Source of the DNA: a virus
Direction: 5' to 3' (one strand)
Length of the DNA: 41,360 bases
IMG/VR virus record: IMGVR_UViG_3300045996_000859
Coordinates: 1 to 41,360 of that record
Below, in pieces: positions 9,207 to 41,360 of this stretch; the stretch's first letter is position 1, and the number at the start of each line of letters is the position of its first letter. Below the pieces are notes generated by a model that was not told where the DNA came from, did not search any database, and saw nothing but the letters and a program-made list of their open reading frames with translations. The position numbers were made by a program, and so were the translations under genes.

Positions 9207-9499
9207 CAATCGTCCCGCCCTTGCCGGTGCTGTTCTTGACGCTTGTTTTCGATGTGCGCGCGGATGCGGTCGCGGTACCAGTCGGGGAGCAACTCGCCCA
9301 TCGACTCAACCGGCGGGTCACTGACCTGCATGACGAGGCAACCGGGGTGCATCGTGTCGACTTCGAGCTGCGCGGCTTCCTTGCTCGCAAACTTGCGGAC
9401 GTGGGCCTCGTCGAACTTGCGCCACTTGCGGCGCGGGCCGGCCCACGAATGCGACAGGTACTCGTCCACGATGTCGTGCCGGACAACCCAATAGGTCAT
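9206..9499 (-). CDS. hypothetical protein after integrase
   Basis: 97 residues from ATG 9499, which overlaps the integrase stop by ATGA; the upstream continuation of the frame is antisense to integrase and not credible. Aromatic-rich N-terminus (TYWVVRHD), then Arg/Lys-rich helices and a charged C-terminus (NKRQEQHRQGRDD). It may be a nucleic-acid-binding protein, but no domain is recognised. Confidence 0.6.
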   Translation of the reverse strand: MTYWVVRHDIVDEYLSHSWAGPRRKWRKFDEAHVRKFASKEAAQLEVDTMHPGCLVMQVSDPPVESMGELLPDWYRDRIRAHIENKRQEQHRQGRDD

Positions 9500-10485
9500 A
9501 AAAACTTGCCCCCGGCGTGGTTCTGGAATGCCTTGGCGCGGCGGTCGTAACCCTTGAGCGTTTGCACGCTCGTGTGCCGGGTGATGTCCATGACGCGCAA
9601 CACGTCGGACCCGGCTTCGAGCGCCGAGGTGACGAAGCCGGCGCGCAGGCTGTGTCCTGAAAACAACGTCGGATCTAAATTGGCGGCCTTGGCGCGGGCT
9701 TTGACGATCCGCGCGACGGCGTGGTCGGTCAGCGCGCCGACCTGAACATGTCCGCCGCGGCGGATCGGCCGAAACAGCGGACCTTCGGTGATCGCGGCTG
9801 CATCGAGCCACGTATCCAATGCCTCGACAGGCCGAAGGCGAGAGCCACGCGGAATAGGGACAGCATGGCCGGCACCGTCTTGGTCCGTCTTCGAGCGACG
9901 GATATGGAGGAAGATGCCGCCGTCTGTCCGTTCGATGTCCGCAACATTCAACTTTGTGAGCTCGGATCTTCGGAGCGCGGCGGCAAAGCCGATGAGGAGG
10001 AGCGCGGCGTCGCGCTTGCCCCTCAGTGTGGTGGTGTCGATGCGTTTGAGCATCGATGATATGGCGCGGGCCGTGGCCGGGGCTTTGCGCTCAACCGCCA
10101 CGCCGGTCCGCCTGCGGATGCCACGAAGGACCGCCTTGACCGGCTCGGCATGGGTCGGGGGCGTAAAGCCTGCCAGCCGATGCCCGTATGCGATGGCCGC
10201 CGCTCGGCGGTCGATCGTTGAGACTTTCTTTCTGTCCCCGGCGAGCGAGGCGAGATAGGCCGCAACGGTGGCGATCGAGGCCGGCAGTACATCCGTGCCT
10301 TGCCTCGCGCACCATGACGCGAAGTGGGTCCAGTCGGCCTGATAGGCACGACGGGTTGCGTCTGATTTTTCGGCGAGCGCGTAGCCGCGGGCGGCGGCGA
10401 GCGCGTCGTTATAGGCTTCCGAGAGGGGAAGCGCGTTGTTGTCCTGAACGTCGCCTCCGGGCGACAGAGCCGGGAGCGATGTCAA
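9496..10485 (-). CDS. int: tyrosine integrase
   Basis: 329 residues. The first credible start is TTG at 10485, with no in-frame ATG until far inside. The N-terminal SAM-like core-binding domain covers about 20-125, the catalytic domain about 140-320. Catalytic residues visible: Arg172 (ALRRSEL), His278-x2-Arg281 (GHSLRAG), His304 (TRHTS) and nucleophile Tyr313 (KGYDRR). It performs attP x attB recombination and shows the phage is temperate. No attP core can be pointed to from one sequence. Confidence 0.92.
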   Translation of the reverse strand: MTSLPALSPGGDVQDNNALPLSEAYNDALAAARGYALAEKSDATRRAYQADWTHFASWCARQGTDVLPASIATVAAYLASLAGDRKKVSTIDRRAAAIAYGHRLAGFTPPTHAEPVKAVLRGIRRRTGVAVERKAPATARAISSMLKRIDTTTLRGKRDAALLLIGFAAALRRSELTKLNVADIERTDGGIFLHIRRSKTDQDGAGHAVPIPRGSRLRPVEALDTWLDAAAITEGPLFRPIRRGGHVQVGALTDHAVARIVKARAKAANLDPTLFSGHSLRAGFVTSALEAGSDVLRVMDITRHTSVQTLKGYDRRAKAFQNHAGGKFL

Positions 10486-16727: not shown

Positions 16728-17500
16728 ACCCCGCACATCCCCTCGCATTCGTTGATGAAGAGGTTAAGTTGCGGGTCGGCCTTGGTGAGATCCGCGACGG
16801 CGAGCGGTGTCGCCGACCGATGGACGAAGACCGGCGCCCGGAACATCGCAAGGCCCGCCGGCTCGCGAAGCCGCTCGTCAATCTCGATCGCCCGCACCCA
16901 CCCCGCCGGATCGTGGTCCCGGAGCCATTGCCATTGTTTGTTGCTCTTGTAGGGACAGAAGACGCATGAGCTTTTCGGCGGGATTGGATAGCCGTGATCG
17001 GTCAGCCAGTTGGTACAATCCCAGCGGCTCATGCGCTTCTCGATCAGCGGATCTCGCCGAACGATGTAGCGAACCCGCGACGGCAAAAGCCGGATCACCT
17101 CGTCGGTTGAGATCCCGACCCATTGCTCGACCGCGCCCGGCGGGATGTAGTCCCGCGGCCCGACGCCGAGGAGTTCGCGAACCTTCCGGCGGATCGGCAT
17201 GAGCTTGTAGCTTCGGGTGCATTGCCGCTGCCGCATCCCGTTCGCGGTATAGGCCGGAATGCGGGCCTCGTTGTCGTCGAACAGCCGCTCGCCGAGCGGC
17301 CCGGTCAGAACCCGGTGGATCGGGAACGGGAGAGCCCGTTCCAGTTGGTCGAGGTGAGGGTAAACCGGCGTCGGCTCCTCGCCCGTGTCGGCGAAAATGG
17401 CACAGTCGGGCATCGGCCCGATCTCGCCATGCGCCGCCATCAGCGCCAGCGTCGTTGATTGAACGCCCGCCCCGAGCGAAATCACCCGTAGCCGTGTCAT
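16724..17500 (-). CDS. PP-loop ATP pyrophosphatase (PAPS reductase-like)
   Basis: 258 residues from ATG 17500, overlapping the GcrA stop by ATGA. The PP-loop SLGAGVQST is at residues 8-16 and a FADTGEEP segment at 36-43, as in adenine-nucleotide alpha-hydrolases of the PAPS reductase/DndC group. Cys94, Cys162, Cys179 and Cys182 (SSCVFCPYKS) could bind a metal or Fe-S cluster. Family members activate sulfate or modify nucleic acids, e.g. thiolation or phosphorothioation. In phages such genes are common but poorly understood; its placement between GcrA and a zinc-ribbon gene suggests DNA or RNA modification (inference). Confidence 0.75.
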   Translation of the reverse strand: MTRLRVISLGAGVQSTTLALMAAHGEIGPMPDCAIFADTGEEPTPVYPHLDQLERALPFPIHRVLTGPLGERLFDDNEARIPAYTANGMRQRQCTRSYKLMPIRRKVRELLGVGPRDYIPPGAVEQWVGISTDEVIRLLPSRVRYIVRRDPLIEKRMSRWDCTNWLTDHGYPIPPKSSCVFCPYKSNKQWQWLRDHDPAGWVRAIEIDERLREPAGLAMFRAPVFVHRSATPLAVADLTKADPQLNLFINECEGMCGV

Positions 17501-18075: not shown

Positions 18076-18533
18076 GGCCGCCTCACCGACAGGTTCGGGA
18101 GGAGACAGCGCCACCCTTCCAGGATGCTCAGCGCCTCGTTGAGGTCGTCCGCCCACGCCCACGGCCACCCGAACAACTCGGCGTGCTGCCTGAAAAGATC
18201 CTGTGGCGAGTCCGGCAGGATGCGCTCGCCGCGGCGCTTGATCTCGAGGAAATGCGCGCGCGCGTTCGGCGCGATGAAAACGAGATCCGGCACGCCCGGC
18301 TCGACGCCCATCGCCTTTAGCTTCGCGCCGGTCCGTTTGTCGCGCTTCTCGCCGTTTGCGGTGTGAAAACCCTTCCAACCGGGCGCCTTGCGCCAGCGGA
18401 AGTGACCCATGATCGCGATTTGAAGCTGAAATTCGAGCGGAGGCGGCGGTTTCGCGAGCCGCTTGCCGCGCCGCGTCAGCGGCAATTCCGGCTGAATTTC
18501 ATACGTTATTGAAATGTCGCGAGGCGTGGGCAT
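18072..18533 (-). CDS. VRR-NUC domain nuclease
   Basis: 153 residues from ATG 18533 (a TTG at 18548 would add 5). The VRR-NUC fold is shown by GVPDLVFI (80-87), FLEIKRRG (95-102) and a following QHAELFGW (115-122) segment: the PD-x(n)-E-x-K nuclease core with the downstream helix. VRR-NUC proteins of phages act on branched or flapped DNA, fitting recombination-dependent replication together with the Bet/RecT gene. Coupled by ATGA to GcrA. Confidence 0.85.
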   Translation of the reverse strand: MPTPRDISITYEIQPELPLTRRGKRLAKPPPPLEFQLQIAIMGHFRWRKAPGWKGFHTANGEKRDKRTGAKLKAMGVEPGVPDLVFIAPNARAHFLEIKRRGERILPDSPQDLFRQHAELFGWPWAWADDLNEALSILEGWRCLLPNLSVRRP

Positions 18534-18540
18534 AATAGGC

Positions 18541-20001: not shown

Positions 20002-20220
20002 ATGTTCATCATCCAATGCACCAAGGACGAGAAAGCGATCTTGGAAACCGCGCTCAACCTGCACATCGGCCCGCTCGCCGCGAACGTCAGCTTGCTGACG
20101 CAAGCCCACGGCGCGGGAGCGCCGTGCGTCGAGAAGGCGCGCCGGATGGCGATAGTCGCTAAACACCTGTCCGACAAACTCAGGGATGCGCCGTTCAAGC
20201 TCGTGGAGGCCGCGCGATGA
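20002..20220 (+). CDS. hypothetical early protein
   Basis: 72 residues from ATG 20002, preceded by GGGAGG 6-7 bases upstream; an ATGA-coupled ATG at 19945 would add 19 residues. CTKDEKAILETALNLHIG then helical segments ending KLRDAPFKLVEAAR. Not recognised. Confidence 0.55.
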   Translation: MFIIQCTKDEKAILETALNLHIGPLAANVSLLTQAHGAGAPCVEKARRMAIVAKHLSDKLRDAPFKLVEAAR

Positions 20221-35251: not shown

Positions 35252-35620
35252 TTAGGCGACGATTGCCTGAACGGTGAGAGCGGCGTTACCGCTCGTGTAG
35301 GTAATCGGCACGCGGCCCGAGCCGTTGCGGAAGCCGACAATCTCGTCGCGCGGGATGTGGAACAGGCGGGTCGTGCCAGCGACGACCGAGATCGTCTTGG
35401 CGGTCGGGGTGAACGAGCCTGCGCCCTTGCCGCCAACCGTGATCGACGACGCCTGGCCGGAAATCGTGACGGTGATGTCAGAGCCGTGCCCGTTGTCGAA
35501 CACGATGAAGAGTTCTTGCGTGGCCGATACGGTGATTTCGTCGCCGGCCGGGGTCGAGGCGACAGGGTTCAGAAGCGGCGGCGTCGTGGCGGACGCCGTT
35601 GCCGGTGTAATGGTTGCCAT
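35252..35620 (-). CDS. Ig-like/decoration protein, paralogue 1
   Basis: 122 residues, ATG 35620. Thr/Ala/Gly-rich beta sandwich (ASTPAGDEITVSATQELFIVF, GSGRVPITYTSGNAALTVQAI). The end ITYTSGNAALTVQAI is shared exactly with the neighbouring paralogue. Likely a capsid or tail decoration domain. The 94-base gap before the tail tube gene carries three small hairpins (GCGTCGT/ACGACGC at about 35178-35192, CCTTG/CAAGG, CCCGC/GCGGG) and no gene. Confidence 0.65.
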   Translation of the reverse strand: MATITPATASATTPPLLNPVASTPAGDEITVSATQELFIVFDNGHGSDITVTISGQASSITVGGKGAGSFTPTAKTISVVAGTTRLFHIPRDEIVGFRNGSGRVPITYTSGNAALTVQAIVA

Positions 35621-35686: not shown

Positions 35687-36055
35687 TTAGATCTTGATGG
35701 CCTGGACAGTCAGCGCCGCATTGCCAGACGTGTAGGTGATCGGCACCTCGGTATCGCCGTTGAGGTAGCCGGCCATGCTCGTCGCCGGGATGTAGATCGA
35801 CTTGTAGGCGCCGGCCGCGACCGCGACCGAGAGCGCGGCGAGCGTGAACGATCCCGAGCCGTAACCCGTGATGGTGCGCGTGACCGCGGTCGGCGTCACG
35901 CCAACCGTGATGGACGAGCCGTGCCCGTTGAAGATGTTGAGGATCAGGCCATTCGAGGCCGTGCATCCCGTGATGGTATCGCCGGCAGGCGTCGAGGCAG
36001 TCGGGGTCGAGACCACGCCCGAGGTCGTCGGGGTGACGGCAGCAATGTCAGCCAT
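35687..36055 (-). CDS. Ig-like/decoration protein, paralogue 2
   Basis: 122 residues, ATG 36055. Same length and pattern as the neighbour (STPAGDTITGCTASNGL, GSSITVGVTP, SGSFTLAALSV, ITYTSGNAALTVQAI). Tandem duplication with diverged middle. Function as virion surface protein is inferred. Confidence 0.65.
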   Translation of the reverse strand: MADIAAVTPTTSGVVSTPTASTPAGDTITGCTASNGLILNIFNGHGSSITVGVTPTAVTRTITGYGSGSFTLAALSVAVAAGAYKSIYIPATSMAGYLNGDTEVPITYTSGNAALTVQAIKI

Positions 36056-36087
36056 TAGAGTACCTGTTGTCGTGAGAGGGTGACGCG

Positions 36088-36285
36088 ATGAGCGACAGTG
36101 ACCGGCTTTCGATGGCCGACGTGAACCTGATCCGCGCGGCGCTGGCGGCTTACATTCTTGAGCAGAGCAAGCCGGAGGGCTTTTCCAAGCACCGCATGAT
36201 TAATATTGACCGGGCGCGCGCCCTGTATGAGCGGCTCGGGAAAACGCCCGTAGGACCATTCCCGCGTGCCGATATGCTGCTCTAA
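36088..36285 (+). CDS. plus-strand small helical protein (moron)
   Basis: 65 residues, ATG 36088, with GAGG about 9 bases upstream. DRLSMADVNLIRAALAAYILEQ then HRMINIDRARALYERLGK: two or three helices, no signal peptide. It is opposite to its neighbours and overlaps the minus-strand stop of the next gene by 4 bases. Not recognised. Confidence 0.55.
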   Translation: MSDSDRLSMADVNLIRAALAAYILEQSKPEGFSKHRMINIDRARALYERLGKTPVGPFPRADMLL

Positions 36286-36704
36286 GGCGTCAGAAAGGCG
36301 CGGTAGCGGATCGAGACGGGCAGCATGACCCAACCGGGTTCCTCGATCGCCGGGCCGATGTGCGGCGGCGACAGGATTGAGAACGTGGTCGCTTGGTGCG
36401 TCACCTGCGTGCCGGTCGTGAAGTGCTCGCACAACGCCGCGGCGGTCTCATACGCGGCGATGATGCCCGACCCTTCCGGGTAGAACACGTTGACTTGAAA
36501 GATGCCGCGGAACTCGTTGACGAACCCGGCGACATCAAACGCTTCGGTCATGCTCGGCATGATGTACGCGCGCAGGTACGCGGTGCCGGTCGATGGCGCG
36601 AACGGCAGGCCGGGCTTGGCGATCGACAGGCTGTTGTTGCTGGCGAAGATGTCGAGATGGTCGGTCAGCGCCCGAAAGATCTTGACTTCGAGTCCGATGG
36701 TCAC
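36282..36704 (-). CDS. tail terminator-like protein (DUF4128-like)
   Basis: 140 residues from GTG 36704 (GTGA with the gp10-like gene). LEVKIFRALTDHLD, GTAYLRAYIMPS, RGIFQVNVFYPEGSG, and ending VMLPVSIRYRAF are the pattern of DUF4128/minor tail terminator proteins. It would close the tail tube at the head side. Order after gp10-like protein fits. Confidence 0.72.
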   Translation of the reverse strand: MTIGLEVKIFRALTDHLDIFASNNSLSIAKPGLPFAPSTGTAYLRAYIMPSMTEAFDVAGFVNEFRGIFQVNVFYPEGSGIIAAYETAAALCEHFTTGTQVTHQATTFSILSPPHIGPAIEEPGWVMLPVSIRYRAFLTP

Positions 36705-37120
36705 GGGCGTTCCTTTTGGGCTTCGGCGGCGGCGCGGTTCACCGCCGCCTGAAACTCGTCGACGGTGGTGCGCACGATGCCGGCCGGCGCTTGCTTCGAG
36801 TGGCCGTATTCGAGCCGCACCGCGTAAGGCAGGTTGTTTGCGAGGTAGACGCGATCACCGGCCTTGGCGCCCGCGATGGTCGCCGAGGCGCTCGCGATGG
36901 TGCCAGTGCCGGCCTTGTCGAGACGGCCCGTCAGGCCGCCCGGCACGCTGTTGATCCCGGCCATCCAGTGTCCGCGGAAGCGCCCGGTATCGACCGGCGA
37001 CTTCATGACGACCTTGGTCATGAGGTCGAGGGCGACCTTGCGGACCACCAAGTCGGCGCGGTCGCCCGCCTTCTCGACCCATCGTGAGATGTCGAGTTTG
37101 AACGATGCCGACCGTGCCAA
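36701..37120 (-). CDS. HK97 gp10-like head-tail joining protein
   Basis: 139 residues from TTG 37120, AGAAAG upstream being a weak RBS. SPVDTGRFRGHWMAGIN is the hallmark 'PVDTGxxR' segment of the HK97 gp10 family, followed by ANNLPYAVRLEYGHSKQAPAG, also typical. It helps to join head and tail. Confidence 0.82.
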   Translation of the reverse strand: MARSASFKLDISRWVEKAGDRADLVVRKVALDLMTKVVMKSPVDTGRFRGHWMAGINSVPGGLTGRLDKAGTGTIASASATIAGAKAGDRVYLANNLPYAVRLEYGHSKQAPAGIVRTTVDEFQAAVNRAAAEAQKERP

Positions 37121-37132
37121 GAATGTCGCTTT

Positions 37133-37249
37133 CTGTGTCGGGCGGAGAACGGACAGGCTGGGGTTTTCCCCTTATCCTGCCTGCTCTCTCGCCCGATCTG
37201 CCCCCATAGGTGGGCGAGGCCCTAGCGCGCCATCCGGCGCGCTTTTTTT
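37133..37249 (+). ncRNA. probable structured small RNA with intrinsic terminator
   Basis: On the plus strand the gap between two minus-strand genes folds into a nested outer stem TCGGGCG (37138-37144) / CGCCCGA (37190-37196), with GAGA/TCTC, CAGGC (37154-37158) / GCCTG (37179-37183) and GGGG-TTTT-CCCC (37160-37171) inside, then a GCCC/GGGC hairpin (37200-37215), and a terminator GCGCGCC-ATCC-GGCGCGC followed by seven T (37225-37249). A weak promoter (TTGAAC at 37098-37103, 17 bases, GAATGT) is suited to a start near 37132. It is not a tRNA and I recognise no known family. The T-run overlaps the stop codon of the minus-strand gene. Confidence 0.55.
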
Positions 37250-37604
37250 AGAACCGGATCTGCAACTCGAAGAGGATCACGGTTCCGCCTGGCTCAAGTG
37301 GCCCGACTGAAACGATATCATAGATCATCGCGCCGTGAACGAACTTGTCACCGGGGTTCGGCGTGATGGCGAGCCCCTCGGCCGAGACGTAGACCTTCCG
37401 GTCGCGCGCCTGAATGTACGTCCCGTCGCGCTCGCGGTGGGCGTAGTCAGTGATGACGCATGTGACCGCCGTATCGGCGGAGCTCTGCGTCGGGTTCCAG
37501 TTGTCCGACCCGCCGTTGGTGACGCGCCGGATGGTGGCGGCCTGGCCGAAGTTGGCGATCAGCCGCGCGGCGGTCGCGCGGGCCGTCACATAATCGAAGG
37601 CCAT
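37248..37604 (-). CDS. head closure / tail connector protein
   Basis: 118 residues, ATG 37604 (TAATG). VTARATAARLIANFGQAATIRR, then beta strands (VTCVITDYAHRER, KVYVSAEGLAI, DKFVHGAMIYDIVSVGPLEPGGTVILFELQ). Consistent with stopper or head-closure proteins of siphophages. Position between DnaT-like connector and gp10-like protein supports this. Confidence 0.68.
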   Translation of the reverse strand: MAFDYVTARATAARLIANFGQAATIRRVTNGGSDNWNPTQSSADTAVTCVITDYAHRERDGTYIQARDRKVYVSAEGLAITPNPGDKFVHGAMIYDIVSVGPLEPGGTVILFELQIRF

Positions 37605-40357: not shown

Positions 40358-40380
40358 TCAGCGTCTCGCTGTTGTTCCGT

Positions 40381-40410
40381 GGAACGTTCCGGAACGTTCC
40401 GGAACGTTCC
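40381..40410. promoter_or_regulatory. three tandem perfect palindromes before capsid operon
   Basis: The decamer GGAACGTTCC is repeated exactly three times without spacer (40381-40410), with a partial half-site TTCCGTGGAA just before. The 10-base period puts all copies on one face of the DNA. They lie 24-53 bases upstream of the scaffold start, just behind the terminator of the other late block. A protein-binding site controlling the head-tail operon is the simplest reading. Confidence 0.6.
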
Positions 40411-40436
40411 AGCGGTTAAGGTGCCGTCACGGCACG

Positions 40437-40467
40437 AAAAACCCGCCGCGAGATCACCTCGGGCGGG
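40437..40467 (-). terminator. intrinsic terminator of late block A
   Basis: Minus strand: CCCGCC CGAG / CTCG C GGCGGG with one bulge and a 5-base loop, followed by TTTTT (arms 40442-40447, 40449-40452 / 40458-40461, 40462-40467; T-run 40437-40441). A canonical rho-independent terminator 28 bases after the stop of 40496-40861. Confidence 0.85.
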
Positions 40468-40495
40468 CGGGGAGGCTTAGTGTGTGGACAGATGT

Positions 40496-40870: not shown

Positions 40871-41360
40871 TTATTCGCCGATCGTGCCGGCGAGCGCAGT
40901 GGAGATGTCGAACGTGCCCGCAAGGCCCGTCGCGATGTCGAACGTGCCGGCGAGCGTGATGTCGTAAATGTCAGGCAGCACGGCCGCGGCGTTTACGACG
41001 GTTGCGCTAAAGAACGTGTTTGTGTTCGTGAAGAGCGCGGGCGTCAGCGTGACGGCACCGGTCGTCACGGTCGGCGCGTGGAATGTCGACGTATTCGTAA
41101 ACAGGCTCGGCGCAAGGGTGACGGCACCGGCCGAGACGGTTGCGCTGTAGAATGTTGACGTGTTCGTGAACAGCGCGGGTTCGAGCGTCGCCGCGCCCGT
41201 GCTGACGGTCGGAGCGAAGAACGTCTGCGCATTGGTGAACAGCGCAGGCGTCAGTGTGACGGCTCCGACACTGACGGTCGGAGCGTGGAATGTCTGCGCG
41301 TTCGTGAACAGCGCGGGCGTAAGCGTTACGGCGCCGGTCGTGACCGTTGCCGCGAAGAAC
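40871..41360 (-). CDS. repeat-containing virion/tail protein, C-terminal part (begins at the other end)
   Basis: The frame enters from the right edge and stops at 40871. It contains about 4-5 of the 23-residue units, and ends VLPDIYDITLAGTFDIATG...TFDISTALAGTIGE with a second short repeat (AGTFDI). The 126-base redundancy lets it be joined to the part at 1-216. The GTG near 41068 is not a start, since the same frame is open up to the edge. Confidence 0.75.
   Translation of the reverse strand, partial: FFAATVTTGAVTLTPALFTNAQTFHAPTVSVGAVTLTPALFTNAQTFFAPTVSTGAATLEPALFTNTSTFYSATVSAGAVTLAPSLFTNTSTFHAPTVTTGAVTLTPALFTNTNTFFSATVVNAAAVLPDIYDITLAGTFDIATGLAGTFDISTALAGTIGE
41234..41359. repeat. terminal redundancy (copy 2)
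   Basis: Identical to bases 1-126; removal of one copy leaves about 41,233 unique bases and closes the circle in frame through the repeat gene. Confidence 0.9.

Follow-up and report, generated by a model that had tools for sequence, protein, structure and literature searches.

A 127-bp insertion between two late genes of a phage was tentatively read, at somewhat less than even confidence, as an orphan, moron-like noncoding RNA gene that lies on the plus strand and opposes the late operon. The insertion, its folds, a terminator, a promoter-like site and the lack of a coding signal were read directly from the virus record IMGVR_UViG_3300045996_000859, all 41,360 bases of which were analyzed (referred to below as the window). 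Judging from its sequence, the source phage is temperate and siphovirus-like, and its gene set includes integrase, terminase, portal, P22-type coat protein, neck proteins, tape measure, and endolysin. The best matches of the integrase were found in Alphaproteobacteria, the closest genome match of Neck1 was an Afipia MAG, and the hosts are probably alphaproteobacterial.

Insertion at the head/tail module boundary

The late genes are transcribed on the minus strand, and the element is situated at the boundary of the head and tail modules, between the last head gene (hc1) and the first tail gene (neck1; Table 1). The latter has a TTG start codon and a very weak Shine-Dalgarno (SD) signal (-0.8). 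Among loci retrieved via Neck1 or the coat protein, ~40 distinct ones had a readable junction, and the gap between Hc1 and Neck1 ranged from -8 to about +10 nt in these relatives vs. 127 nt here. More distant Neck1 relatives, which were alignable only from residue 46 and probably have a longer N-terminal part, were left out of this count. Since hc1 and neck1 abut in the ~40 relatives, the 127 bp represent an insertion, found only in this phage. It is placed exactly between the stop codon of hc1 and the start codon of neck1, and the last T of the terminator overlap the hc1 stop codon, a minus-strand TAA whose A's lie opposite the seven-T run (T7).

Morons are extra genes inserted between phage genes. 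The element resembles them in being extra DNA that separates genes adjacent in relatives, in having its own terminator (8-bp stem and T7), and in having a promoter-like site. Unlike morons, it codes for no protein, and its putative promoter lies largely inside the neighboring gene.

Two further observations were made on the minus strand. Adjoining genes at 35252-35620 and 35687-36055 encode similar 122-aa proteins, both weakly matching PHROG 16194 (tail), which suggests a duplication. A repeat-rich protein with TLTPALFTN-type units is encoded at 40871-41359 and is open at the right end of the record.

Table 1. Positions of the element and of neighboring features in the window.
Feature	Position	Strand	Basis or remark
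Promoter-like GTGACG-N17-TAGAGT before the 65-codon ORF	36033..36061	+	Sigma-70 weight matrix
65-codon ORF	36088..36285	+	Codon score and SD; inside the minus-strand tail operon
neck1 / tail completion protein	36701..37120	-	phrog_169, E 9e-56
Promoter-like TTGAAC-N15-AAGAAT	37098..37124	+	Generic sigma-70 weight matrix; predicted start near 37131
Insertion between neck1 and hc1	37121..37247		127 bp; gap comparison with relatives
Long interrupted hairpin	37137..37197	+	Folding; 23 pairs, UUUU apical loop; complementary strand equally good
Small hairpin	37199..37216	+	Folding
Predicted intrinsic terminator	37224..37249	+	8-bp stem (7 G-C), 4-nt loop, seven T
Head closure protein Hc1	37248..37604	-	phrog_161, E 2.6e-25

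Fold, terminator and promoter-like site

A preliminary description of this DNA had reported a long stem, a second hairpin and a terminator with seven T, and all of these were present within 37137-37249. It had also stated that the region folds on the plus strand only, which did not hold: the minus-strand fold (-66.9 kcal/mol, z -5.9, better than all 200 shuffles) was as stable as or more stable than the plus-strand fold (-63.2 kcal/mol, z -4.8, with 0/200 shuffles as good). When the terminator was left out, z was -4.5 for the minus strand and -3.3 for the plus strand. When the whole window was scanned in 117-nt stretches, the element region ranked within the top few on both strands. Two internal pairs are G-U on the minus strand and A-C mismatches on the plus strand. 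The T run is the sole clear strand-specific feature of the element; the promoter-like site supports the plus strand more weakly.

In the same scan, the strongest plus-strand fold was found at 40363-40480, just upstream of the gene preceding the major coat gene. Three tandem GGAACGTTCC palindromes in this region adjoin a terminator-like stem that is followed on the minus strand by five T, an arrangement suggestive of a transcription boundary and operator. The second-best z-score of a minus-strand fold (-7.4, -49.0 kcal/mol) was located at 16953-17069, where minus-strand ORFs overlap.

The terminator stem, AGCGCGCC-ATCC-GGCGCGCT, occupies 37224-37243 and T7 occupies 37243-37249; the window contains no further run of 7 or more T or A. 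With a strong terminator defined as a perfect stem of at least 7 pairs, at least 5 of them G-C, and T6, 34 were counted in 0.94 Mb comprising the window and the structural loci of relatives. Of these, 32 were oriented along the genes and two faced against them, namely that of the element and one in L146. Strong terminators opposing a structural operon are thus rare (2/34) and usable as a search signal for hidden counter-strand units.

The promoter-like site ahead of the element has its -35 hexamer within neck1 codons, and its -10 hexamer spans the neck1 start codon. It ranked about tenth when both strands were taken together (~83,700 sites scored) and sixth on the plus strand, and the chance of an equally good plus-strand site was about 0.9% per 60-nt stretch under this generic weight matrix. 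The 15-base spacer is poor, and the site was absent from a stricter scan with spacers of 16-18. Given the predicted start and an end at 37249, the RNA would correspond almost exactly to the insertion. The best sigma-70-like site in the window (TTGAAA-N16-CATAAT, plus strand, 18509-18536) is located just ahead of a plus-strand gene cluster at 18.7-23.3 kb, a placement that is reassuring as support for the matrix.

Searches for relatives and rejected identities

No homologue of the element was found in phages, plasmids or viral contigs, by pattern search in a genome collection, or in as many as 385 alphaproteobacterial genomes. Searches with blastn against phages and plasmids yielded nothing except a chance piece over the terminator, and those against 297 genomes of the Afipia family yielded only short stretches, mostly of the terminator stem. 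A single-sequence covariance model (R1) found no match in the 297 genomes and 79 structural loci. In viral contigs, stem DNA patterns gave nothing but chance matches, and those that were read proved to be unrelated sequence, one of them within a coding frame; a two-sided stem pattern in viral contigs and a stem pattern in genome contigs had no match. The flanking proteins were only ~57-62% identical to their nearest relatives, and the orphan status of the element is therefore best read as the lack of a sister phage within reach rather than as a sign that there is none.

The Rfam search proposed in the preliminary description was conducted with Rfam 15 and produced no match above the gathering score and only chance-level matches at a permissive threshold, so that a known Rfam small RNA family was rejected. 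Neither a tRNA nor a tmRNA was present in the element. A small protein gene was also rejected, as the 28-codon ORF at 37124-37210 scored -0.37 bits per codon with an SD of -1.7 (equivalent to no SD) and had no match in Pfam or PHROGs. An attachment site was not favored because the integrase gene (9496-10485) is far off, and a dispersed repeat was dismissed, no second copy occurring in the window. Pairing of the terminator stem with 20137-20151, to which it has a 15-nt complementarity, was judged weak because the stem would have to open.

Candidate antisense RNA and competing readings

The preliminary description had noted no plus-strand gene nearby, a statement contradicted by the 65-codon ORF in the tail operon. 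The coding score of this ORF (+0.21 bits per codon) was matched by 0/50 background antisense ORFs and its SD (dG -8.6 kcal/mol) by 1/50. No homologue was found in a search; on its sequence signals, it is likely a moron-like plus-strand gene. The only plus-strand terminator-like sites between this gene and 37224 are at 36613 and 36692, both weak, and the T7 terminator may therefore end the transcript of that gene. Such a plus-strand transcript of ~1.2 kb, begun before the gene at 36088, would cross the tail terminator gene and neck1 in antisense orientation; the head genes would be shielded from antisense transcription, and the hairpins would be the 3' end of the transcript. The long transcript could itself be an antisense RNA like STnc6030, which measures 786 nt and lies opposite structural genes of a prophage in which accessory loci are often antisense to lytic genes (PMC7067206). 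The credible gene, with its promoter-like site and strong SD, and the weakness of the intervening terminators agree with this explanation. We nevertheless consider it rather unlikely, since ~0.94 kb from gene stop to terminator is unusual for a compact moron, termination needs no long upstream hairpin, and the 65-codon gene and the 127-bp element are separate insertions.

The fold would also suit an intercistronic element of the minus-strand mRNA, whose hairpins would part the head and tail messages and govern either their stability or the translation of hc1 relative to neck1, with T7 arising incidentally or serving as a second-line guard against antisense transcription. The more stable minus-strand fold, the two G-U pairs that preserve the helix on that strand only, and the position exactly at the head/tail boundary speak for such an element, as does the very weak SD of neck1, on account of which a loss of stop-start coupling would matter. 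Relatives do without any such element, however, and it would leave unexplained both a strong plus-directed terminator and the only T7 of the genome; its probability was set low. Lower still was that of an inert or selfish palindromic insertion, either a recombination remnant or an orphan repeat, tolerated at the module boundary. Its restriction to this phage and its exact placement, with a stop codon on one side and a start codon on the other, would fit, but the insertion lacks terminal repeats and any clear target duplication, no copies were found elsewhere in the phage or in the sampled alphaproteobacterial genomes, and an intact T7 terminator is unlikely as junk.

The independent plus-strand RNA of about 115 bases suggested in the preliminary description was retained as the best single reading, at ~117 nt, on the basis of the terminator, the promoter-like site, the insertion boundaries and the lack of a coding signal. 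In favor of a small RNA gene are the uniqueness of T7, the strength of the terminator and its rare opposing orientation, a promoter-like site placed for a start at the hairpin, the agreement between insertion and RNA, and the plus-strand fold. It is weakened by the lack of a homologue, and hence of covariation, by the poor spacer of 15, by a minus-strand fold that is as good or better, and by the upstream plus-strand gene as a possible client of the terminator. In addition, little single strand would be left in the RNA for pairing in trans.

Under the preferred reading, a small RNA gene was inserted at the head/tail junction of a temperate phage and would amount to an RNA-only moron. Transcription would begin near 37131, at a weak promoter that shares bases with the start of neck1, and would yield a nearly fully paired RNA of ~117 nt whose 3' end is set by the T7 terminator at the stop codon of hc1. 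Being encoded on the opposite strand, the candidate RNA would be perfectly complementary to the intercistronic hc1-neck1 stretch of the late mRNA, and a cis-encoded antisense role against this segment is its most likely function; transcription, length, pairing and purpose are what we infer. In the candidate RNA and the late mRNA, matching hairpins would carry UUUU and AAAA loops that complement each other, and pairing or opposing transcription would cause leaky late mRNA to be cut or held down in the lysogen. A more specific proposal is regarded as unlikely: the 117-nt noncoding gene would be self-contained, face the late operon from its exact place at the head/tail module boundary, and act in the lysogen as an antisense brake, with late mRNA being split or silenced and superinfecting kin affected as well.

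The claim of the preliminary description that such an RNA would be a new element was overstated, as published precedents exist both for RNAs directed against structural genes of phages and for convergent small RNAs at moron sites (PMC7067206, PMC4933390, PMC4104026). In phage PAK_P3, antisense RNAs of early infection lie mostly over the structural region (PMC4933390), and prophage BTP1 of Salmonella carries STnc6030 opposite structural genes, its accessory loci being characteristically antisense to lytic genes (PMC7067206); both offer precedents by analogy for a small RNA gene. Like STnc6030, the candidate would be a prophage noncoding RNA opposite late structural genes, but STnc6030 overlaps coding sequence and has demonstrated expression and superinfection exclusion, whereas the candidate is predicted at ~117 nt and confined to an intercistronic insertion (PMC7067206). 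The PAK_P3 RNAs are likewise small (mean 176 nt) and located in a structural region; that phage is virulent, however, all but one of its antisense RNAs lie within genes, and they were detected by RNA-seq, whereas the candidate is an inserted hairpin-terminator unit known from sequence (PMC4933390). Convergent small RNAs are also present at lambdoid moron sites (PMC4104026), where AsxR and AgvB (small RNAs/anti-small RNAs) are comparable as phage-borne small RNA genes at an insertion-tolerant site. These RNAs measure 51-60 nt, their 3' parts are conserved, their targets are known and they lie beside PR', whereas the candidate lies at the head/tail boundary and has no Rfam relation (PMC4104026). 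The likeness to all three would be at most one of mode of working, not of sequence membership.

If transcribed, the element would be a clean case of a phage acquiring a noncoding regulatory gene via insertion between structural genes. It would also provide a simple test system, in probable alphaproteobacterial hosts, for the restraint of late genes by opposing RNAs.
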